Below the pieces are notes generated by a model. The model ran no database searches. It was not told where the DNA came from and worked only from the letters and a program-made list of their open reading frames with translations. From Coprinus comatus (taxonomy: Eukaryota > Basidiomycota > Agaricomycetes > Agaricales > Agaricaceae): DNA of 58,933 bases. This document shows, one piece after another, positions 1 through 56,320 of the stretch. Location: NCBI GenBank assembly GCA_034638255.1, contig JAWPGT010000115.1:1-58933 (forward strand), read 5' to 3'. A program made the position numbers and the translations under genes. Numbering within the stretch: position 1 is the stretch's first letter; each line of letters opens with the position of its first letter.

Positions 1-33
1 CCCCTAACCCCCTAACCCCCCTAACCCCCTAAG
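1..33. repeat. Telomeric repeat, chromosome end
   Basis: Four C-rich units each end in TAA, with 4, 5, 6 and 5 C residues. On the G-strand they read TTAGGGG to TTAGGGGGG, like the common fungal TTAGGG telomere but with extra, variable G. The C-rich strand lies 5' at the left edge, the orientation expected at the left end of a chromosome. Only about 33 bases are present, so the telomere is either truncated in the assembly or cut off by the window. Confidence 0.9.
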
Positions 34-4782: not shown

Positions 4783-5457
4783 TCAAGTCCTCAAATTTGT
4801 AAGCTGAAAAGTTAACAAAACTGTATTAAGTGTAATAAGAGTTAACGCATGACCAGACTCCTTGTAGCGAAGTGATATTGGTACAAACTCAAGCTCATCA
4901 AGGATCTCTAGTTTATGCTGAATCAACCATTCAACAATGTCAAAACTGGAGTTGAGTAGATCGTTGTAAGAAATTTCATGCTCATCTGTCGAGTGCTGAT
5001 CAGAGAGGACAAGATGACCTAGATGACAATCTCCTCCTTTTACACATTCAAGATTATGTACCATAAACCGATTAACATCATATGGTGAGTGGAATGCATT
5101 ATCACTGAGGTAATCCATTGGAAGAGGGATCCTGTTTCCAAGCTTTAGCATCATTTCACGATGCAAGCTACTTCTGAGGATATCATGGAACTCAGCTTTG
5201 CGTTCAGTCATCTTGGTGAACTCATCTGGATTACCAATAACCCAATCATCCAGTTCCTCATTACAACTTCCGTCCAATGGTCCCATAGCAAATAAACCAA
5301 GGTGATTTCCTTCACTCATTGCCGCTAGTTTGGTCTCCACTGGTCCGCCAATTCCCATAGTCCTCAGATTAATGGGTGGACACTTATTAGTCCTTTCAGG
5401 ACAATCTTTAAAAAGATGATCCTTTGATTCACACTGGAAGCAGTGACTGTTACGGTT
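4783..5457 (-). pseudogene. CCHC zinc-knuckle ORF, retroelement gag-like fragment
   Basis: The frame is open from just after a stop at 5458-5460 to a stop at 4783. Near its 5' end it encodes CFQCESKDHLFKDC, an exact C-x2-C-x4-H-x4-C knuckle of the kind carried by retroelement Gag and Gag-derived proteins. The remaining about 200 residues are acidic and not recognised. There is no ATG before the knuckle, so this is a 5'-truncated piece. Its upstream edge coincides with the terminus of an LTR-like sequence beginning TGTTACGG at 5447, suggesting interruption by, or origin from, an element. An alternative is a host zinc-knuckle gene exon. Confidence 0.45.
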
Positions 5458-5757
5458 TCATATTTATCACAACTAATCATTAGAACTAATGATGGACAAT
5501 AGTGTACTTTCTCTTCTATCTGTTTTACATAGCCTTGGACTAATGTTTTGTATAGCCTCAGACTAGTACTTTCTACGGACTTCCACTTGTCATTTCACTC
5601 ACTGTTTCAGCTGTAGATAGTTTCACTCTCCTGTCTCACATGTATCAAGCATAGCCTACAACCTGTACTCATAGTTGTATAAATACATGGACAGTGACAG
5701 AGATTAAGCTTCAGCTTAATACTCTCTTGTTTGTTCTCTATCTCATTCATCGCCCTC
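5447..5757 (+). mobile_element. Possible LTR of a copia-type element
   Basis: The segment begins TGTTACGG, contains a TATA-like box (GTATAAATACATGG, about 5677) and ends near CCCTCA. It is followed by TTGATACCTAGAACC, which resembles a decayed initiator-Met tRNA primer site (TTGGTATCAGAGC class). I cannot find a second copy or a target duplication, so both limits are tentative. Confidence 0.3.
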
Positions 5758-5759
5758 AA

Positions 5760-6386
5760 CTTGATACCTAGAACCGGAGTCAGCTCTAACTCTTGCACGA
5801 ACGGCTTACTAGTAAGGAACACCTGTGATCTACAGTCTGAGTACTGTGGAGGTTGTCCCCTGAAAGTAGTCTCAGTCTGAGTAGACGTTCTCTTCCTACG
5901 AGCACCTTGAAGAGGTCCATTGTAACATTGTCTATACCAAAATGGAGGTATAGGCAAGTTTACAACACAATACCTGATAAGAATACAAATGAAGTAACTA
6001 TAAGTAGAAATGAGTTATAAGAACAAAGGAAAGAGTTTAATGGTAACTAACCTCAGTATCACAAAGACCAGCAAATACTGAGGTTTACATGGTATCTACT
6101 CTCTCATTATAAGTCATGAAGAACAAGACAGTCTGATAAGAAATAAAACACATATTATCATATAAAGGTCAACTTAGCTTTAAAGAAGTTTAATAAGCAG
6201 AAAAGAAAGAAAATCATGGTCTCAGATATGCTCAGTCATTGTGGTCCAAACACCATTTGCACCCCCTGACTTGACACATGTTTGCACAACAAAGATCCAA
6301 CTCCAACACAACAGTCAGATAAGGAGAACCAAATCCCACCAACAGTCCAGCCAACAGATGATGTTAGGGTCAGCACAGTCTGCAAC
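5760..6386. other. Region without a recognisable gene
   Basis: A 116-residue minus-strand frame (5607-5957) crosses the putative LTR boundary and shows no domain. A second LTR-like end, CCGTCACACATTGG, occurs at 6670-6683, beyond the minisatellites. The whole 5.4-6.7 kb stretch may therefore be one decayed element. Confidence 0.35.
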
Positions 6387-6488
6387 GTATCGCTGCGACG
6401 TATCGCTGCGACGTATCGCTGCGACATATCACTGCGACGTATTGCTGCGACATATTGCTGCAACGTATAGCTGCGACATATAACTGCT
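6387..6488. repeat. 13-base minisatellite, about eight copies
   Basis: The unit is CGTATCGCTGCGA. The first three copies are perfect; later ones diverge mostly by C-to-T or G-to-A changes (CATATCACTGCGA, CATATTGCTGCAA and so on). The array translates as a repetitive peptide in several frames but has no gene context. Confidence 0.85.
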
Positions 6489-6571
6489 AACAGTAGTATA
6501 TACTGAATTAACAGTAGTATACACTGAATTAACAGTAGTATACACTGAATTAACAGTAGTATATATTAAAC
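6489..6571. repeat. 21-base minisatellite, four copies
   Basis: Four head-to-tail copies of a 21-base unit starting AACAGTAGTATACACTG abut the 13-base array with no spacer. The two middle copies are identical. Confidence 0.85.
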
Positions 6572-6847
6572 TGGCTAAAATCAATAATAATTCTGAATAT
6601 ACCACTATAGAAGTACAAGGGACAATACTATTAGATAATTAGGAGGATAGTGACATATATCCTGACGACCCCGTCACACATTGGAATTGATATCCTTAAC
6701 ATTTATATTGATAGACTAACTTATGGTCATTACACTCATCAATATTCAATAATGAAGCCTTAGTTTATTCTTTTTAAGTACGCTTTATCATACAAAAACT
6801 GCTTCATCAATTCGTAATCCATATCCACCCCCTAAGAAATCTAAATC

Positions 6848-9431
6848 TTAAATAGTATACCTGAACTCCGGCGCACGATCACCCATCTCTCTAAGTTCCT
6901 GATCAGTATATTTATTCTTCTCTCCATTTTCCAATGCCTTTTTGATAACTTCGTCCTTGATTTGTTGATTCTCGTGTAAAGGATAACAGCAAGTGGGAGG
7001 CATATGAATCCAATTCCAACAAACATAAGTTCAATGGCATCTAAAGTAAAAACAAATAGAACATGTGAGTGGTCTTTGCGAATATGTATAGAAGAAGCGA
7101 TAGCCTTATACGTACGTCCAATAATATACCTCGGTGAATCTTGGGCACGATAGATATTCGCAGCAATAGCCCCGCTGAAATTACCAATGCCGATTTGAAC
7201 GGCCATACCGATTCCACGCTTATATTGTCCAGCCAAGTTATTTCCGAGCCTACAATGCAACACATTAAAGATAGTATAAGTATAAGAAAGAGAGATATGA
7301 CTGACCAAGCGACAATGCCAGGGAATGCAGAATAACTTCCCATCACAACAAAGAATGTGCCGAAATACTTCACACCAGTAGGTGAAGCTGAAATGTTGAT
7401 GGAGAAACCAATGCAGCAGAGGACTAAGCCAGCAAAGATGAATGGCGAACGCATTTTTATCTTGTCGGAATACCAGGCAAAGGCGTAGAGAAGCATTGCT
7501 ACGAAGATTTAAGTTAAATTCGACATCAAATAAACATCACTTACTGGCAGCAACATAAGGTGGTACGGTGAGTAGTTGACTGATTGCAGGGCTATATCCG
7601 AAGCTAGACGGGATTTTAACTTGGATACGTAAATGTCATTGGAACAAACAAGACTTACGAGTTGATGATGGAGCTGTTATGGGATGATCAATAATCCAAA
7701 TTGTGGACTCTACATGAATTATTTGGACTTACGGCAAGAAAAGTGTGATACCATACACTGAATAACTAGTCATTAGAAACTATTCCACAATACAATCTCG
7801 AAGAGCGGACAACTTACGAGGAGCAATGATTGACATGTAAATCAATACATGCAACCAGACTTGCCAGTCAAGCATAGCCATTCTCAGATGACGCCATTCG
7901 AAATGTTCTTCTTCTCCAACAGATGAGTTGTCATATTCTGGTAAAGTATTCAGTTCAAGCGACTGTGATACTATATTACACATGAGAAACTTACTTTTTC
8001 TGTGAATAATGAATGCACGTTCCTCATTGGTAAGGAATTTGGCGGTATCAGGGAAATCAATCAAAACTAAACGAATATGTCATCAGTTGTAATAAGTTAT
8101 GGAATGAAGACAACGAACGGAATAAAGCGACTACTCCGACAATGACTGTTCCCAGACCTTCAAGAATCTAAAATGGAATAGTGAACAAGGGATGGATTAG
8201 CGAGAATTCATAATGAACGTACAAAGATCCAAGACCATCCCAATTTACCACCAGTTCCACTCATATGACCGATGCCAAATGCCAAAAGTCCTGAGAATGC
8301 ACCCGCTAACGATGCAGATCCAAAGAATAGTCCGATACGGAACTGAAGCATATGCCGAGGATACCATATTGACAGACTATATAGTTATTGTTGAGGGAAT
8401 GTCTTGTTGATAAAGTGACAAGGAGACGTACTAATAGACAACACCTGGGAACAAACCTGCTTCTGCGATACCGAGCAAGATACGGAGACCCACAAGTTGA
8501 GGGTAGCTATATGGAGATTGGGGTTGGTCGATTGATTGTTCCTAAACATGACATTGAGTACTCACGTTCTCACAACTCCCATGAGAGTCCTGAGGTATTA
8601 TTGAATCAACACTCCACCCATCCAATAGCCGTGGAATACACAATATAAATAGACATACATGATTGCACCCCAAACTATCTGAGCCACGGGGAGGTCCGTC
8701 AGCATCGGAGCTCCAGATAGGAACAGGAACTACTCACCGTAATACCTGGAAGCCATCTTCACAGAGAAGGTTGAAGAGAATAAGACTTCGTATCGCAACA
8801 TGCTAAGGAACATACCTCGAAGGTCTGAAACGTTTAAGGACGAGACTATGTAGGGTGAGTATGCCATGATTTGAATATTGGGGTTGGAAAAGAAACATAC
8901 TTTGCAGGACATTCGAAAATGCAATATGGCTATTGGCATGTGAGGACTGACCACACCAGTATCCAAAAGCGACATACGTACAATGAAGAACATAGTCTGC
9001 AAGAGTTCATTAGTTGTAGGCTACATCATAGAATCAACTACGCACGAGGGCAATATTGTACTGATTTCCGGTCATGTTTAGCTCAGTTACCAAGCCTTGT
9101 AGCCTTGCATTACCTAGTAGGTGCGTGTCAACTCATGCTTCCATTTGAGAATAAGCAACTATACCGATGTTTCCTATCATATCATTCATTAATCATTTGG
9201 TGTGATTGATCGAGCATAACACGCACCTCGATCCAAGAAAGACATTAGATACATGACTGCCAAGATCGGCATTAATTTGTTATCAACCTTCCTCCATACT
9301 CTCTTCTCCTCTTCTGCAGAATAGGTAGGGACTGGAGCGTCAGCAACCTTTGCGACAGAGCTAGCGACCTCATTCTGGGAGTCAATTTGTCGTTTCTCGT
9401 CGTTGGAGTATTCCGGTTCCTTGACAGACAT
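6848..9431 (-). CDS. MFS transporter, anion:cation symporter (Dal5/Tna1-like) type
   Basis: A multi-exon gene starts at 9431. After a hydrophilic N-terminus it encodes WRKVDNKLMPILAVMYLMSF followed by LDRG, then GNARLQGLVTELNMTGNQYN in the next exon. These are hallmarks of the allantoate/nicotinate-type (ACS) branch of the major facilitator superfamily. Later exons give FECPA, GLRILLGIAEAGLFPGVVYY, the central-loop DFPDTAKFLTNEERAFI, YAFAWYSDKIKMRSPFI and a C-terminal ELREMGDRAPEFRY ending at 6848. About twelve transmembrane segments and about 500 residues are expected. It probably moves an organic anion across the plasma membrane; the substrate cannot be read. A one-base frame break lies at the AAA run 6961-6963. 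A divergent G-domain gene lies about 1 kb upstream. Confidence 0.8.
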
Positions 9432-10468: not shown

Positions 10469-11696
10469 ATGCCAAACCCAAATGTCAAAGGACCTCTTAC
10501 CCAACCGAGTTCGAGTTCGCGTTCGTCTAGTCCTCAAGATTTGGGGCAACGCCCAGCGTTTGACAGTAATAAATACGTCATCGCGTGAGTCAAATTCGCC
10601 ATCAAACTCACCATTATTCAAACGTTGCTTGCTCTCATTAGTCTACTTGGCCCTTCTGGAGCAGGAAAGAGCTCTGTAAATATCACCCATTCTATCTCCA
10701 ACAATGTTTGACCTCCGAATTGCAGTTTATCGCACATGCCACTGGCCAAGACGTCGAGATAGGCCATCTTCTTAGTCCTTGTACACAAGAGATCAAAACC
10801 TACGATGTTCCTGTGGACGATGGAAAGTCGGTCATGTTCGTAGATACACCAGGTTATGATCTAGCAGACAAGAATCCCAATCGTGTTCTAAACATGCTTC
10901 AAGAGTGGCTGAAGAAACAAAATACAGGGTACGTTCAGACGTCCATCATTCCTTCCGTGATGATCTTATCATCATTTATTAGGAATGTCAAACACAATTT
11001 AAATGCCATCCTATTCTTTCACCGCATTACTGACAACCGTATGCCAAAGGCAACTCAATCACATATCAAGAAATTCGAGAAGCTTGTTGGTGGAAAAGTT
11101 GGAGCTCCTCGGAAAATACTTCTGGTTACGACGATGTGGAGTGATATAAATGAGAAGGAGATGGGAGATTTACGTGAACACCAATTACGAAGCGTCTTTT
11201 GGAAAAGCATGATACAAGGGGGATCCAACGTTTATCGTTTCGACAGATCACGTACCTCTGCCTGGGATATATTACAGCCTCTCCTTGGTGTTAACAGTCC
11301 CACTCAGACACAAATACCGTTACCATCTGGTGAAGAAAACAATCTAGTAGAGGTGGACGAGGAACAAGAGCATGAATTGGATGGTGAACAAGCATTGGCT
11401 GCGATGGAGCAAATATTCAAGGATCAACAACGACTTCTGGAGAAGCTGCAAGTGATTGTCAAAGAACAATCAGAGAAGAACGACCATTCTCTTGATCGGA
11501 AGTTAAAGGACGTCGTGGCAGAAGAGAAGAAGATTTCTGGAAACTTGGGATCGCTGCTTTCTAGCCTCAAACGTCAGAGACGCCTCAGGTATGTAAGTCT
11601 CAGACGGCATGGAATATGATTTTGACGCAATGTTCTTTTTTCGTTAGGTTTTTCTTTAAAAGTGGAGGCGGACATGAAGGTAGTAGCCATAGTTAA
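10469..11696 (+). CDS. AIG1-like P-loop GTPase (G-domain protein) with C-terminal coiled coil
   Basis: Five exons are read with constant frame: 10469-10584, 10642-10675, 10726-10928, 10983-11588 and 11648-11696 (335 aa). The 34-base second exon encodes the P-loop GPSGAGKSS (G1). Exon 3 carries FVDTPGYD (G3). Exon 4 carries LLVTTMWSD where the G4 base-specificity motif should be, rather than a classical NKxD. Residues from about 225 on are charged and heptad-like (MEQIFKDQQRLLEKLQ), then a short Gly/Ser/His tail follows. This matches uncharacterised AIG1/GIMAP-like G-domain families expanded in Agaricomycetes. It probably binds GTP and may oligomerise; its role is unknown. It appears intact and is related to the tandem G-domain gene at 40.9 kb. 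Confidence 0.8.
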
Positions 11697-40891: not shown

Positions 40892-42802
40892 ATGTCAAAG
40901 TACCTCCTTCAAAAAGCAAAACAACCCGAAAAGGATGATATAGTAATCGCGTAGGTTAAACGGTCTCAACTCTAAATGATTACTCATTTAGTTTTTTGTG
41001 GTGAAATAGGGTAATCGGTGATTGTGGTAGTGGGAAGAGCTCGGTAAGTAACATCAATTCTCTCTTCTACTACTAGTGATTCAGACAAACTTCAACAACT
41101 CACCCGGGGGTGGCAAATCATATTTAGTTCATCAACCAACTTCTAAAAAACACAAAATCAGAAAAAGCATATGTAGGACACAACTCATTAAGTCCAGCAA
41201 CTACCAGAATCCAGGACTACCAAATCAAACTCCAAGGACTTGGAGATGAGAAAGTGATATTACTCGATACTCCAGGTTTAGATTTTGTATTAGATTCTGC
41301 TAGTTTGGGTTCTAGCTTTGGAAAAGAAGAGTCGGTTTTTTCGTTGATTGGAGGTTGGATGTCAAATAATTATGGGTTAGTGCATTGATCCAACCTTTTT
41401 TTTCTAAAATAAAATATGAATATGACACGATATTCACAATAGGAGACAAAAAATGGACGGCATTATATTCCTCCAGTCAATCGCCAATCCATTAACAAAT
41501 AAAACTCTACGAGGAAGTACTCTAATCAACTTACACGAATCATTACTCGGTAAAGATCCTCATTCTGGAAGCAGAGTTATACTAGCTACCACAATGTGGA
41601 ACGAAGCATCAGTATCCCTTTCCGATGATAGTAGCTATGGTGACTCGAAAATTGAAGTGGCGAACGAGTTGAAGAATGATTATTGGAAGTTACTTGAAAT
41701 GAAGGGATCGACTGTGGTTGATTACGATAACACTCCAGAAAGCGCAGAGTATTACATTTGGAAAATTTTAGCTGTGAGTGTATAGACAATCTCCCAGACC
41801 GACTTAATTTTTCTCAACTGCCTGATATTCCACAATAGGCACAAACGAGAATAAAACATTTCCCCTTACAAGATCATCTAATAATCGCGTACGTACGCAG
41901 GCGATATGGACATCTTAGACTTATTATTGACTAACATTGAATTCTAGCGTTATCGGACCTTCTCCGGCTGGGAAATGTACAGTGAGTATGCGGATTACAA
42001 ACCGCTTCAATTTTCAATTCCCCTTGGGCTAAATTGTCCTAGTTCATCGAATCATTAATCGGCGAAAAAATACCACCACCAATAAGAAACGCTCGCAGCA
42101 TCACACCTTACAACCTCAAACTCAAAGAAGAGAATATAGTACTCCTCCATACACCAAACATCATTTTCGGATCCGTCGGTGTAGATTCCCCAAAACATAT
42201 CTTCAATCTCATCTCACAATGGCTTAATTTCCACTCCAGGTGAACTTCATATCCATGTATTCCAATCGCTCATAATAGTAACCTGTTGTAGAATGACCAA
42301 ACGATCAAATCTTACTCTGGACGGCATCATCGTTTTACATCCATTACATTCCAGTTTTGACGAAAATGTTCTTATGAAGCCATTTCACAAGTTATTAGGG
42401 GGTCAACGCCAATCTACCTACGACACAAACAGAGTTATATACCGACGTGTTGTGCTTGTGGGTTGTACTACGCTGGATACTGAAGACATGGAATCAGATT
42501 CAGATTCAGAGGAAGAACATTGGACGATTCTCAAAGCAGCCGGGGCATCTGTAAAGGACTTTGATGGAAGCATCAGCTCCGCTCGTGGCATCATTGACAT
42601 CGTCGTTGAGGATAGAAAAGTAGGAGATTCGATATACCAATATCGCAACATCATGAAGACACTCTCGGACCTAGTAAGTACGACCAATATGATAGGAATA
42701 AAGAGCTGATATATTTTCAAGAACACGAAAATGGAATCGCAACACCAAGAAGTCGTTGAAAAAATGCGACTTCTGGAAGTCATCGTAGGTTCCAGCACCT
42801 AA
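40892..42802 (+). CDS. Tandem G-domain protein: GTPase plus degenerate second G-domain
   Basis: Nine exons: 40892-40950, 41010-41043, 41128-41375, 41443-41773, 41839-41888, 41948-41981, 42043-42239, 42292-42673 and 42722-42802. They keep one frame (471 aa). The first half has P-loop VIGDCGSGKSS, switch-like SPATTRIQDY, G3 LLDTPGLD and ILATTMWNE at the G4 position. The second half repeats the plan but reads VIGPSPAGKCT (the P-loop Ser/Thr after Lys is Cys), LLHTPN instead of DTPG and VGCTTLD at G4. It therefore probably cannot hydrolyse GTP. Both P-loops lie on 34-base exons with the same phases as the gene at 10.5 kb, showing duplication with introns. Family: AIG1-like fungal G-domain proteins; role unknown. 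A second-half regulatory pseudo-GTPase is inference. Confidence 0.8.
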
Positions 42803-43024: not shown

Positions 43025-43629
43025 TTAGTCGAAGAGACCGAAGCCCTAGAGAAAGGAAAAGAAAAAACATTGTATCAGCATAACGCTCTCGGAATTGCAA
43101 TCTAATGTACATACCATGTCATCATCAGACTCCTCCTTCTCTTCCTCCTTCTTCTCCTCCTTGGGTGCCTCGGCAGCGGCACCTCCAGCAGGGGCACCTC
43201 CAGCGGGAGCAGCAGCAGCGGGAGCTCCTCCACCGGAGCCAACGTTGGACAAAAGCTCCTTCACGTTCTTTCCCTCGAGGGCCTTAGCGAGGAGCGAAGC
43301 CCAGATGGGTTCAAGTTCGACGTTGGCGGCGGATGTTAGGGCGAGGATCTTGTCAGCCTATTTGGAAAAAGCCAAAGTCAATTGATTTTTTGCAAGGATA
43401 CTGAAAAATGGAGTAAAACGTACGGTGATCTCGAGTCCATCATCAGCGAGGATGAGGGCAGCGTATGTGGCGGCAAGTTCTGAGGAGGCCTACAACGTTT
43501 CAATTCTGGTCAGCTCCGATTCATCATCCAAAGTGATTGCCCGCCATCCAGCCAAAAACCCTTGGAATTCGGCCAATAAAGCGCATAGACGTGTTGACGG
43601 TGGCATTGGGCAGTGCATTATCTTACCAT
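43025..43629 (-). CDS. 60S acidic ribosomal protein P1
   Basis: Exons read [20 protein letters not shown], then [20 protein letters not shown] and [20 protein letters not shown]. An Ala/Gly/Pro hinge follows, then the acidic tail [10 protein letters not shown] and, in the last exon, GFGLFD. This is the universal P-stalk signature; P1/P2 dimers on P0 recruit elongation-factor GTPases to the ribosome. About 110 aa, normal length. The first coding exon is only the start codon: ATG at 43627-43629 is followed directly by GTAAGA, and the next exon begins at 43489 with GCC. The final intron separates DDDM from GFGLFD. Multiple introns in a ribosomal protein gene are usual in basidiomycetes. Confidence 0.93.
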
Positions 43630-43858
43630 TTGTACGGACTGGATGCGAGAGACGGCGACGACGGGGAGATGTGGATCCTTGGTTGGGAGGCTTGTGTCGT
43701 TGAGAGCCTGATGGCTTCACGTCACGACATTGCCTTATTTGGAAGTGTAACATCACGTCACTCTATAGCTACCGAATCAACTTTGCTGCCGCCTGTCAAG
43801 CTTTAACTATATTTCCCAATAGTAATATTTCGATCCATCATCCTCAAAATATAGATAT

Positions 43859-50692: not shown

Positions 50693-52865
50693 CTAAGCCT
50701 CGATTTTCTCTGTTGCATGCGCCGGATGATGACCATGTTGTCGTGAATGAGCAGCCATATCTCTTCTCCTCGCCACATATTGGAAGAGTGGTAAAGTGAT
50801 AAGAGAGATAAATGCCCATATAATCAAGACGCCGAAGTGGAAACCAACTGTAATCGAGAAGTAAGATTGAGTATTATAGTTTGATCAGGAAAAATAGACG
50901 TGATTTGCCTACCTTCGTTCTTTGCTCCGAAAATGATGGTACGTACGGCACAACTGACATTATAGAAAGGTGCTGCATAACCATACCTGTATAAGATAGG
51001 TAAAACCTCAATCGGCATAACGCAAACAGCCACGTTGGCTGATTATTCAAAACATATCAGTAACCTAGTCGCTGAAAGAATTGTAGTTGAAACACTCACT
51101 AATGATCCATGTAAGCATGAAGAATGGAACAAAGTTAGGCGTAATTAGGGCTAGCATAGCTTCGAGAGCAAGTCCGCTGTACAGAAATATCATGCCATTT
51201 AGACCATATTTTGTATAACTTTTTGGTAAAATAGGAAGCTTACACTGCACACATGGCGGTATAATTGAGCATCCAGAAAACCAGAAAGCCGGAACGTCCG
51301 AACCTATGGTGAACACTAATCAGTACCGATCTTCAAAAATAAGAGTAATTGTTTCAAAACTGACTTTCTGCTTGTGTCAAGAAGGAAGGCCAAACTGAGT
51401 AACGAATAGAAAAGCTAACACAAATAATTAGTTTCACATAACTAAAAGTAAACTTAAGAAACACAACATACTGAAAGGATAAAATATGCAAGAAAAGACG
51501 TTGTGAAGCGAAGTTTGATAAGAGAAGGGAATGAAAGTAGCGTTTGCAAGTTTGTTGTTGTTCTTGCCGTATTTCCAAGCATCTACAAGCATCACAAGTA
51601 TTGAATTAATAAGAAAATTGGGTTGAGTTAGTTTTAATGAGATATTTACCACAACAAAGAAAGATAAAATTAATAAGAAGATTAGGCCGACGAAAGTAAT
51701 AACACCAGCACTAGGTGTGCACAAGAGGTGAGTTTTGTGTACATGGATAACGCGTATCGAATGGATCAAACTTACACTGGTTGATTGAAAGGAAGGACAT
51801 TACGCAATGTGTAATACATAGGGGCCGTAAGGGTTTGAGGTGAGGTTGCCACGAGTTGAGAAAGTACAGGTGAATCTCCCAATGTACGAACAACTTGTGT
51901 CGCGAATCGAGATGAAATTGCAATCATAGCACCTTCAACCTAAAGCAAGAATAAGTTTAATCGACATCCTCGGAAACGGAAAGAAAAACGTACAGCAGGT
52001 CGAATAAGTCCTCGGCTACAGTTTGTTTTTAGTTCCGGTATTTTTTGTGGCAACCGTAACCAATGACTCACTAAGCATTTTCGTTCCGGGCTTCAGTAGC
52101 AAATACAGTTACCGCTTGTGAGCCGTCGTAGCCAGCGTTTGGTGATGCCAGTGCCGCAGTGAGTCGGTTAGATGCTCCGGGATTAACTAAATCAAAAATG
52201 GAAATGATCGGATTAATGGACTTCGTTTAGCATGCAAAAAGAAGTTAGAGGTATGATACGCACTGGTAACCGCAACCCAAGCCTCCTGCTCAACAATAGC
52301 ACGTCCGACTTCTTCGATATTCGAAAATTGTTCTGCTGGTACAACTCTCCAAGCTATTCTTACTGGTTCTGGTCCATTGGATAGTCCAGCTATGACGCTT
52401 TGACCAATTAAACCGCCATCGAAATCCTGTTGCAAAAGAAACTCATTTAGTTGGATTTTCGTCCACTTCAAATCATTGGATTACATACAACGATCAATCC
52501 AGGAAGAGGACGATACGGGGTTCTATAAAACGCCCCCCAAAAGATTGAAAAAAAACCGTGAAAATTAGAATGGAAGTCATAAGTGTTCCACCAATAATCA
52601 TCTTGAAGTATTGTTTCCGCGCAGCAGTGACGGTGGCATCATGAGAGAAGAAGTGATTGTTGAACATAATAGGTCCAGGAAGAGGACCACTAGAAGGTGA
52701 TTCCATACGTGGAGGAATACTTTCCACAGGCTCGATGGTGACATTCATCTTTTGTCCTGCAAGTGAAGGTCGACTTTGCATGGCATCCTCTTCGTAAAGG
52801 TCATCGTCGTTGAGAGTCATGATGTTATCCCTCTGTGAGAGTCTATAAGACTGACGGTGAGCCAT
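50693..52865 (-). CDS. SNG1-family (DUF3533) membrane protein, copy B
   Basis: From ATG 52865 an N-terminal hydrophilic region (about 85 residues) leads to the first helix (KMIIGGTLMTSILIFTVFF). The frame is then lost at an eight-A/T run (52548-52555) and resumes one base off with IFWGAFYRTPYRPLPGLIV. QDFDGGLIGQSVIAGLSNGP is the conserved DFDGG turn, and EQEAWVAVT matches copy A's EEKVWVAVA. Further exons encode membrane helices, then IEVLPILYRYGYAAPFYNVS and GVLIIWAFISLITLPLFQYV, with a His-rich tail ending at 50693. Sequence and domain order match copy A, so the two are paralogues in direct orientation about 5 kb apart. The homopolymer break may be a sequencing error. Confidence 0.8.
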
Positions 52866-54822
52866 GGTTTAGGGTATGGGAACCAAGAAGCCTTCTTGGA
52901 CCAAACGTCGTTTTATAAGGGCAACATCGTCCGTTCTATTAATAAACTGTACAGATCACGCCGAACGAATTACACAGATTTATTATTCCCACGCCTACAA
53001 TTGGCTAACTCGGATCCATACTTTCCGTCCATCCGTGATAGCTACTACTATTTCTATACAGAAACGATTTGCACGACCTCTGCGGGCTTTCTAATACTCA
53101 GCTCAGCTCACGAAAGCTCGGCGGCCCTTGAAATCACGGAACCTTTTGTGAACAAGATGGCGTGTTAGATCGGCCAACGGCAAAGAGTCAAGACTACGTT
53201 TATGATACAACTCACTTCAAGTCCCATGGAGTTAAATTGTGAATCGCTTGCCACAATCGCGCCTTAGTAAACTGATAAGCCATCCAGCCATTTCGCCTTA
53301 TTTACTAGAATAGATGTCTTTTTGAGGCTACGTCGTGCCTTATTTGTGACTTAGTCTGACTCCTGTATGTCAGACTTGCTAGTATATTTAAAGGCAAGAC
53401 AGAATAAAATCGATACACTTAGCCATATGCGGTATGCCCATCTACGGCAATCACTATGTAACTTGATAAAGTGTCTTGCATGCGTTATTCGATGTTTTCG
53501 CGTTTTTGACAAAGATGCATACCTTGCCCGACCTAAGTGCTGTCTTCTTCGGCACTTGCAGGAAGGAGACTGACAGTTTCTGCGGTTGGTAGGTGGATGA
53601 TGATTGATTCGAGACATTCTATGTGAAGCCGAAGGTTCCTTGATTACTGATTAACCGTTCGTATATCTCTTATCGGAGGAGCAACGTCTATAGTACGCGT
53701 TGCATAGAAGCGCTAAAAAGTCTTCTGTTACCTACTACATGTGAAACTCAGAGAAGTCCGTCGAAGGCTAATCCAGTACAGTCAAGATTATCTGGATCAG
53801 TGTACTCCATTTACAATGCACACCAAGTTATGTACATTCTGGTATAGATCACTGATCATCGATCATTGCTCTGGCAAGAGACAAGATTATACTTTGAAGT
53901 AGTATAGCGGTATGTATAGGTTTTTAAGTCGGAATTTCAAGGTTATACTATTCGATAAGCAATCCACCTATCATCCTCTCTCTCTTGAATCAATTACAAG
54001 TATTCTGTCCAATAGAACGCCACGGAAGCGCATAGTTGCGTACCTGCGCTTCAAATGGATCTTCGGAATATAGGGAATAAGAATAACAACAGACATTCTA
54101 TTATTAATTCTCCGAGCTTCGGGAAGCATCAAAGCTTCCCGGTAGTTTCGATTGTTTCCACTTCCAGCATTATCAGGATTATCACGTAGTGCATGCCCAC
54201 TTATCATATTGTACGCATTTCACATTATCTATGGCGAATCGATAATATGTGCCACTTTAATTTTTCACCTATTTTTCCCCTTTTGTTGAGCTGGGAAAGA
54301 CTCGCCGGACAAAGTCGGGTAGTGCTTGGGAGTACTTTATATATAGACCTAATATGAAGTAAGCGCTATCAGTCCTTCTAATTGACGTAGGTGGCAAGGA
54401 GAGCTCGGAGAATGACACCCAAGTGGAAAAGGGTCCTGCCCAAATGAACCAAGCACGTGCCAGCGACTATACACAATAAGCCGCTCAAACACCGTCCAGA
54501 CTCCAGACCCCGGTGCCTTTAAGTTACCTTCTTACCATCTTACTTATATTTCCTTCCCCTCACGAAGTACTCTAGAGTTCATGCTGTTTCCAAACTACTG
54601 CAAAGCCACAATGAAGCGCCGATTCTCAACACGAACGTCTGACAGTTCTGACATTTATATTGCATCATATGAGCCTGGGCGGACCCGCGCTGTGTCAACA
54701 ACACTTGGGGTTGTGGGAGAAGCAATAGTACAATATGTCGTAAAACAAATTCCTCAACCCCGGAAGTGTTCCTTCTCCCTCTCTTTTCTCGTCAAGGCCT
54801 TCTTGTGCGCCTCTACCCAACA
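52866..54822. other. Intergenic region
   Basis: About 2 kb without a supported gene. A minus-strand piece at 54207-54090 (SGHALRDNPDNAGSGNNRNY) looks protein-like but has no continuation I trust. A TATA-like TTATATATAGACC (about 54337) and pyrimidine-rich leader precede the next gene. Confidence 0.35.
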
Positions 54823-56320
54823 ATGCTTTCCCCACCTCAACTAGTTACCTCCACAAACATCGCAACTCTCCCTTTAGAAAGCTTTCTCTATGGAATCTTT
54901 GTATTATTATTCATATTGTCTAATATTTTGTTTGTATATCGGACGAGGAGTTTACAAGGTTTAAAACGAGTTCCTCCTGCTAGTATGAAGTGGATATTGG
55001 TGTTGAGTTGGGCTGTGTTTTGCGGTGTTACTGGGGTATGATTTCTTTTTCTTATTCAGAATAATCAAACCCAGCTAAACATTATCTCAAATTCTAGCAT
55101 TGGATTGTATCATGGATACGAATATTTAATGGGTTCAAATATCACGATCCAACTATTCCACCTCATCTGTATTTTTCGGATATGGCACAAGTCACGCAAT
55201 TATTGAAGAGCACTTTCCTCTTACCATCACTCGTATTAACGGATCTTGCATTTGTACGGCAGTTCTTTTTTTACTCTTTAATTTAAAATTAATAACCTCG
55301 TGACAGATATATCGGCTGTGGCTCGTTGGGGGGCGAAAAGTGAAAAATATCATTGTCCCAATTTTGACTCTGTCTGGACTGTTTAGTGAGTCAATAAAAT
55401 AACGTATAATTTCTAACACCATAACTAACAACAGATGTTTAGTTAGTGGCGTCAATATTATAATGTGTTATGTCAAGTTTAGAGAAGGAGATTCATCTTC
55501 GATGAAGAAATTGAGAGTTTGGATTATGTGTGATCTTGTATTCACTATTTGGTACGTGTCGAAACATTTATTTCGAGAATATGTGACCGATAGTAAAAAT
55601 CAACCAGTACGAATGTATATTGTACAGGTAACGGATTTCGGCTTTAAACATTATTACATCTCCATAGTATGAACTTTTTCTCATAGTATTTATTGCATGG
55701 AGGATATGGTCTGTTGGAAGGAAGAGTAAGAAACATACCGGTTCTAATCTTTTAGTAAGTTTCTAAACATAAATATCAACAAAGAAAAATCATTTACAAA
55801 TGCACTTAAAGTGTTTACTAGCCATCATATCGGAAAGTGCAGGATTATACACGTTCGTTCATGTATCCATCTACTCTGTATCCATATCTAACCTTTCTCA
55901 CACACACTTCACAGCTCATGGATGTTAATCATATTCATCCTTCACATAATCTCATCACCAATCGACGTTCTCCTAACAGACTCAGCAGCAGCAGTAGCTG
56001 GAATAGCATTCATGTTGATAAATGTTCGTGTAGGACTTGGTTGGGCAACGGATAGAGATTCTAGAATCAAGTTTAAACCTTCACTTGAAGCTAGAAGTCC
56101 AGAATCAGATTCTGGTAAAGGTACGGAGGATACGACGGATATGAGTATGAGGTTTGCTACTAGATCTGAAGTTGGAGAAGATATTGATCTTTCGTTTGAG
56201 ATGGCTATGGAGGATAAGAGAGGGAGCCTGGGGAGAGGTAGAGGAAGAGGTAGAGGGAGAGGTATTGTAGTGACGAGAAGTATTGAGTCGGATGCGGATG
56301 TATCATCAAGGAAATTGTAA
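54823..56320 (+). CDS. Seven-helix-type integral membrane protein
   Basis: ATG at 54823. Spliced exons encode the helices LESFLYGIFVLLFILSNILF, MKWILVLSWAVFCGVTG, FLLPSLVLTDLAF with IYRLWLVGG, IIVPILTLSGLF, CDLVFTIW and WMLIIFILHIISSPI. The end of the helical part is AAVAGIAFMLINVRVGLGWA, a conserved closing motif of uncharacterised seven-helix proteins common in Agaricomycetes. The tail is cytosolic-looking, rich in Asp/Ser/Glu, with an RGRGRGRGRG run, ending at 56320. A receptor-like role is possible but unproven. Introns lie at about 55036-55097, 55254-55304 and 55385-55435, among others. Confidence 0.65.

Follow-up and report, generated by a model that had tools for sequence, protein, structure and literature searches.

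Structure of the tandem G-domain gene

The window, meaning the whole stretch of DNA that was analysed, is a complete contig (C115) of 58,933 bases. At 40892-42802 (+) it carries a gene whose nine exons (59, 34, 248, 331, 50, 34, 197, 382 and 81 nt) splice into an uninterrupted frame of 471 codons plus a stop. The introns are of the GT..AG type and 48-84 nt long, and the intact nine-exon frame described in the initial annotation was reproduced to the base. Exon 1 (40892..40950; this and all other exons of the gene are on the + strand) provides the start codon, an in-frame ATG that is the first after a stop, together with an N-terminal extension and beta1 of G-domain 1. The P-loop of this domain (VIGDCGSGKSS) is encoded by exon 2 (41010..41043), a micro-exon of 34 nt; the switch region and DTPG follow in exon 3 (41128..41375), and exon 4 (41443..41773) completes the domain with the G4 motif TTMWN and with LQS at the arginine-finger position. 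Intron 4 (41774..41838, +) lies between the halves, contains no ATG and has an in-frame TAG immediately 5' of exon 5. Linker and beta1 of G-domain 2 are encoded by exon 5 (41839..41888), an altered P-loop (VIGPSPAGKCT) by the second 34-nt micro-exon, exon 6 (41948..41981), and a switch region with HTPN instead of DTPG by exon 7 (42043..42239). Exon 8 (42292..42673) contains the remainder of G-domain 2, with LHP at the finger position and GCTTLD where the G4 motif TTMW is lost, and exon 9 (42722..42802) adds a short C-terminal tail and the stop.

Exons 1-4 and 5-8 represent one four-exon module present twice, with exon-end phases of 2,0,2,0 each time and a 34-nt P-loop micro-exon in both copies. 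When candidate joins were scored by a splice solver against a profile built without the window gene, exons 3 and 7 and the starts of exons 4 and 8 came out identical; phases, including matching module boundaries, were preset as a condition of that search.

As modelled, the gene structure supports the earlier reading of one gene rather than two. Half 2 lacks a start of its own: exon 5, like intron 4, is without ATG, the ATG at 41906 falls in intron 5, the ATG at 41975 in exon 6 is out of frame, and the first in-frame Met is residue 319, downstream of both P-loop and switch region. We considered it quite improbable that two adjacent genes, each encoding a single-domain protein, were wrongly joined. 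A retained intron 4 would end half 1 neatly with VSV and a stop just past exon 4, and the other strong family loci of the genome are single-domain, most of them clustered on contig C10; against misjoining stand the missing start, the TAG just 5' of exon 5, the mere 65 nt between the halves and the annotation of tandem proteins as one chain in other fungi. Retention of intron 4, by which the frame would run through 41774-41785 and stop after VSV at the TAG at 41783-41785, right after G-domain 1, could give a real second, one-domain product.

The surroundings of the gene contain several repeats. CCCCTAA-type repeats at the contig end (window 1-32) are telomere-like, which may put the tandem gene ~41 kb from the end of a chromosome; the ends of C28, C39, C49 and C63 carry a 16-base pattern of this type too. 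A 187-bp tandem repeat (2.8 copies, 91% alike) occupies 1765-2283. At 5448-5967 lies a ~520-bp repeat found at no fewer than 37 other near-full-length places with 91-93% identity (40 of 183 candidates scored), several pairs of which are 8.4-8.9 kb apart within one contig; it looks like the LTR of a retrotransposon, here perhaps solo. Just downstream of the tandem gene, 43100-43700 (-) holds what we take to be an acidic ribosomal protein P1-like gene.

An intact and a degenerate G-domain on one predicted chain

Half 1 has intact G1 (GDCGSGKSS) and G3 (DTPG) motifs. The corresponding motifs of half 2 are GPSPAGKCT and HTPN, such that the P-loop Ser has become Cys, the G3 Asp has become His and the G3 Gly is lost; the G4 signature TTMW is missing too, while the P-loop retains its Gly and Lys, and Thr directly follows the Cys. 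The sequence bears out the initial claim that one chain combines a G-domain that looks active with one that looks inactive. In P-loop GTPases, Mg2+ is coordinated by the P-loop Ser and the G3 Asp, and in half 2 both of these side chains are, by alignment, replaced.

To a profile of canonical fungal domains, half 1 matched with 107.6 bits and half 2 with 48.3 bits. This profile comprised 22 domains, 12 from single-domain genes of the genome (one of them at 10.6 kb of the window) and 10 from named fungal proteins; both halves of the window gene, the degenerate tandem relatives P0003 and P0005, and the loci C10_605 and C41_1 were left out. The half 2 match spans profile positions 4-191 of 198, compared with a best score of 5.0 bits among 400 shuffles that kept composition, and aligns GKC on GKS, HTPN on DTPG and LHP on LHR. 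Judged by this profile, half 2 is a real G-domain, and it has the sequence pattern of a pseudo-GTPase, in which G1 Ser to Cys, DTPG to HTPN and loss of TTMW sit in an otherwise matched domain of predicted fold.

Against the Pfam AIG1 family (PF04548; curated cut-off 27 bits) the whole window protein scored 19.6 and half 1 alone 16.8, both below the cut-off, and half 2 was not listed; the canonical paralogue C10_568 passed with 29.4 bits. The whole protein passed the cut-offs of Dynamin_N, MMR_HSR1, RsgA_GTPase, IIGP, ABC_tran and Septin, scores that the repeated P-loop helps to add up. Half 1 alone passed Dynamin_N and MMR_HSR1, and half 2 alone passed no curated Pfam cut-off, its best being Dynamin_N at 24.1 of 27 bits.

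With the P-loop Gly and Lys kept, the Cys or His might still allow half 2 to bind metal or nucleotide weakly or in an atypical way. We regard as possible but rather doubtful the fuller proposal that half 2 still binds GDP or another ligand independently of Mg2+, the two halves then forming a regulatory pair in different nucleotide states like septin class II/III partners. The retained Gly and Lys and the Thr after the Cys would suit such a binder, and a passage in PMC10731463 describes septin pseudoGTPases of classes II and III as keeping GTP or GDP; the G1 Ser, the G3 Asp and Gly, and G4 have nevertheless all changed together. We favour reading half 2 as a pseudo-GTPase.

A P-loop micro-exon marks an AIG1-like family in this genome

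A canonical paralogue used as query against the genome detected at least 14 single-domain loci with E below 1e-5: nine on C10 (559-610 kb), one in the window, one on C15, two on C77 and one on C41, the last a near-copy of a C77 locus (C41_1 ~ C77_34). All 14 have the 34-nt P-loop micro-exon. The pattern used required 34 nt, to which other lengths are invisible, and it missed no strong locus; one further match, at window 22255 (-), is unrelated and due to chance. Whole-domain homology and this common micro-exon place the window gene in the genome's fungal AIG1-like family, and the micro-exon may aid annotation of such genes in related fungi.

The paralogue within the window is a single-domain gene at ~10.5-11.7 kb (+), 30 kb from the tandem gene, with GPSGAGKSS, DTPG and HRITDNR; its P-loop micro-exon (LLGPSGAGKSS; 10642..10675, +) served for comparison only. 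GKS is present in 15 of the 16 P-loop micro-exons solved (14 single-domain and two of the window gene), and GKC is confined to half 2. The G3 motif of 12 single-domain genes reads DTPG in nine and DTPA, ELPA or DTSG in the others, and among this genome's rows of the motif table both Mg2+ ligands are lost only in half 2. Two near-copies, C10_605 (of C10_561) and C41_1 (of C77_34), were dropped before tree and motif counts. The solver's model of C10_605 is poor and short (119 bits), that of C10_569 runs up to its locus boundary, and C115_10, C77_34 and C41_1 have doubtful first exons.

Some single-domain paralogues diverge in their own ways. One on C15 at ~340 kb (L044) has LHHIIDDQ in place of LHRITDNR, and one on C10 at ~609 kb (L042) has ELPA in place of DTPG and the P-loop GPPHAGKSH. 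Five further Pfam AIG1 matches on C15 and C29 (L001-L005), three of them over the cut-off, lie in uninterrupted frames of 280-310 aa; the P-loop micro-exon pattern is absent from all five, which apparently form a second subfamily. Searched against its own genome, half 2 matched only itself and a second copy on contig C36.

Tandem relatives in other fungi

A database search with the whole protein, in which the 7999 candidates having most words in common were scored, found 12 proteins with 27-36% identity, and matches with a named organism were mostly fungal. Half 2 as query (residues 226-471) matched none of 2075 candidates with an E-value of 10 or below. Four of the 12 proteins are tandem. P0001 (Galerina; three domains, record marked partial) and P0002 (Phlegmacium; two domains) have intact GKS and G3 Asp. 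The other two have a degenerate domain: P0003 (Panaeolus papilionaceus) has GKG and YTPG in its second domain, and P0005 (Pisolithus marmoratus) lacks the P-loop in its second domain and has DVPA in its first. A profile search with the four tandem proteins returned 11 proteins, three of them new and none evidently tandem. Neither GKC nor HTPN occurs in any of the 15 proteins found by the whole-protein and profile searches, and this absence from the collection is weak evidence.

The trees suggest that duplication within a gene has happened more than once, at the least in P0002 and P0005, whose domains are sisters with UFBoot of 99-100 and 97-98, respectively. The window halves are sisters in two trees (SH-aLRT 84/UFBoot 91 and SH-aLRT 91/UFBoot 93), though their support does not reach the level starred by the tool; half 2 is flagged as a long branch (2.31 vs 1.12 for half 1). 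P0001 domains group at 77 in one tree and not in the other, and those of P0003 have no stable position. We also constrained the trees towards a duplication shared with P0003. Joining window half 2 with P0003 domain 2 cost 6.4 log units (p-AU 0.16; long branches flagged), joining half 1 with P0003 domain 1 cost 2.8 (p-AU 0.35; P0003 domain 1 flagged as a long branch) and grouping all four cost 1.5 (p-AU 0.41; three flagged long branches).

Half 2 is constrained between two gene copies

The second copy of the gene on C36 is 98% identical. The C36 parts that were fetched align to the window collinearly and in the same orientation with 94.6-99.1% identity, apart from two out-of-order pieces (181 nt at 77% and 1761 nt at 90%). 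A probe from window 52000-56000 matched only C115 and C36; one from 5000-9000 did not match C36 and gave partial matches to the end of C28 (96%) and to C117 (92%), and C36 probably ends before reaching this stretch. From their collinearity, we consider the two copies probable alleles of a heterokaryon. An intron-rich, apparently heterokaryotic genome, together with the relatives found, suggests a mushroom-type fungus.

Between the copies of the gene there are 24 exonic substitutions in 22 codons, of which 17 changed synonymously and 5 nonsynonymously, and four indels, all intronic. The GT/AG ends of all eight introns, the Cys and HTPN are identical in both. Against a null of 20,000 draws, each moving every substitution to a randomly chosen site with the same base, nonsynonymous changes were depleted in half 1 (2/9 observed vs 6.3 expected, P 0.0026) and in half 2 (3/15 vs a null mean of 10.7, P 1e-4), a test that covers one pair of copies with 24 substitutions and takes allelism as inferred. 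A count this far below the null indicates that half 2 has been under constraint since the copies parted and is not simply decaying; the earlier statement that the intact frame argues against simple decay thus gains support from both halves. C115 and C36 could instead reflect a recent segmental duplication or, in part, assembly redundancy. In its favour, collinearity is all that speaks for alleles, and C36 was missed by the 5000-9000 probe, although that stretch probably lies past its end. We think such a duplication or redundancy very improbable, and it would hardly alter the conclusion, as synonymous changes have accumulated with the amino acids mostly unchanged.

The same data bear on whether half 2 is a degenerating passenger, drifting to loss while half 1 does the work. 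Its branch is about twice as long as that of half 1, it has lost several motifs, and degeneration of one domain recurs in P0003 and P0005. Yet both copies keep the open frame, the splice sites and a half 2 nonsynonymous count far below the neutral level, and the profile match covers nearly the whole domain, making a passenger unlikely. We accordingly disfavour simple decay and return to half 2 as a retained pseudo-GTPase.

The arginine-finger position is lost in both halves

The solved structure nearest by sequence is GIMAP7 (3zjc, E 1.1e-9), followed by Der, GIMAP4, mitochondrial EngA and septin-9 among others, in a PDB search whose profile held 8 domains, two of them the window gene's own halves. 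By profile alignment, on which the equivalence of the finger position rests, the first Arg of the family motif LHRITDNR aligns with the Arg of GIMAP7 LGRYTEEE, position 108 of the 3zjc chain, which we take to be R103 of the GIMAP7 protein. GIMAP7 is described as stimulating GIMAP2 through dimerization and a catalytic arginine finger (PMC8066113), with activation by heterodimerization also described in PMC4201521, and R-fingers are reported in AIG1/GIMAP and Toc GTPases (PMC11238149).

This Arg is widespread in the family. It is present in 11 of the genome's 12 single-domain rows (C15_340 has His), in all five domains of P0001 and P0002, in all five further single-domain proteins and in five of six among P0009, P0010 and P0012-P0015 (P0015 has Asp). 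C41_1, dropped from the counts, has it as well, and the C10_605 model lacks that stretch. In both window halves it is gone, replaced by Ser in half 1 and Pro in half 2, as it is in P0003 (Pro and Asp) and P0005 (Ser and Pro). The totals are 26 of 28 other domains examined versus 0 of 6 in the three tandems with a degenerate domain, six that are not independent if the window gene and P0003 have common ancestry. The most telling new point from these alignments is that tandems with an apparently dead domain have no Arg, in either domain, at the position aligned to the trans-acting arginine. Its absence from both window halves speaks against an activating dimer of the GIMAP type. Three of the six domains, P0003 domain 1 and both P0005 domains, still have the motif's second Arg (DNR), which could serve there instead.

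An AlphaFold model of P0003, the closest analogue, was built from a 12-row alignment and reached a mean pLDDT of 53.9, with a fairly confident G-domain in half 1 and mostly values under 50 in half 2. It is a poor model with a low-confidence second half, and so says nothing on pairing of the halves. Its best 20 PDB matches are chains of Rag/Gtr, GIMAP2, Toc34/Toc33, Irga6 and GIMAP7, with TM by target of 0.31-0.67 over 183-218 columns, which corresponds to a single domain in length.

Comparison with known systems

Active and pseudo G-domains on one chain are already known elsewhere, as p190RhoGAP and EhRabX3 illustrate, and septins and GIMAP8 offer related precedents. Septin pseudoGTPases are described as keeping a G interface working without hydrolysis (PMC10731463), a likeness in that a degenerate G-domain is retained as partner across the interface; in septins separate chains pair, whereas the supposed partners of the window protein share one chain. 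p190RhoGAP is noted as having two pseudoGTPase domains besides a GTP-binding domain (PMC5593906), and EhRabX3 as a tandem, atypical GTPase (PMC8514894; PMC5593906). Both, on these descriptions, combine GTP-binding with pseudo or atypical G-domains on one chain, but they belong to the Ras superfamily rather than to AIG1/GIMAP and differ in architecture. GIMAP8, for which the source mentions three potential G-domains (PMC4201521), likewise has several on one chain. GIMAP7 is the best PDB sequence match of the window family; as described it supplies its catalytic arginine in trans, whereas neither window half has Arg at that position.

Closer to home, the fungal single-domain AIG1-like proteins (the C10 cluster; P0004, P0006-P0008) have the same domain with G4 TTMW or a close variant, and this genome's loci have the same P-loop micro-exon. 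They differ in having one G-domain, mostly with intact G1/G3 and HRITDNR and in several cases a long C-terminal tail, while the window protein combines two such domains, of which one looks inactive, with a short tail. P0001 and P0002 are tandem like the window protein, but GKS, the G3 Asp and the finger Arg are present in all five of their domains. P0003 and P0005 resemble it further in their degenerate second domain and in lacking the finger Arg in either domain, with only ~30% identity and other substitutions. Among the papers listed from an open-licence library there was no description of a fungal AIG1-like active/pseudo tandem, which is weak evidence, none of a fungal AIG1-like protein with both finger arginines lost and no fungal study of the AIG1/GIMAP family.

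A candidate one-chain active/pseudo pair

The built-in dimer or self-regulation first proposed for this protein is a plausible hypothesis. We give an even chance to the following reading: a single gene that arose by intragenic duplication of an AIG1/GIMAP-like module and encodes an active/pseudo pair, with half 2 as built-in partner and without arginine-finger activation. On this view a fungal AIG1/GIMAP-like GTPase gene would have duplicated its four-exon G-domain module in tandem. Half 1 would bind GTP-Mg as a slow-hydrolysing switch, and half 2, having lost nucleotide binding, would be a pseudo-GTPase without a nucleotide cycle and the permanent partner of half 1. Contact between the halves would make half 2 a cis replacement of the GIMAP/septin G-dimer that stabilises or reads the GTP state of half 1. 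Hydrolysis is probably not stimulated across the dimer, unlike in GIMAP7, since the arginine is absent from both halves, and GTP may be retained to give a long-lived or structural signal, much like in septin complexes that contain a pseudoGTPase.

More speculatively, mushroom-type fungi may repeatedly have converted a homodimeric arginine-finger GTPase into an obligate one-chain active/pseudo pair, a GTP-gated scaffold and not a cycling enzyme. The path would run from intragenic duplication of the exon module, through loss of the Mg2+ ligands or P-loop in one copy, to loss in both of an arginine finger that had become useless; we put this forward tentatively, as a doubtful extension of the single-gene case. 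In animals and plants, the AIG1/GIMAP family is known above all for its part in immunity. If the pairing is true, the window gene would represent, within this family, a one-gene G-dimer with one side frozen. With one active site and both arginine fingers removed and the fold kept, it lets one ask what GTP hydrolysis serves in such dimers.
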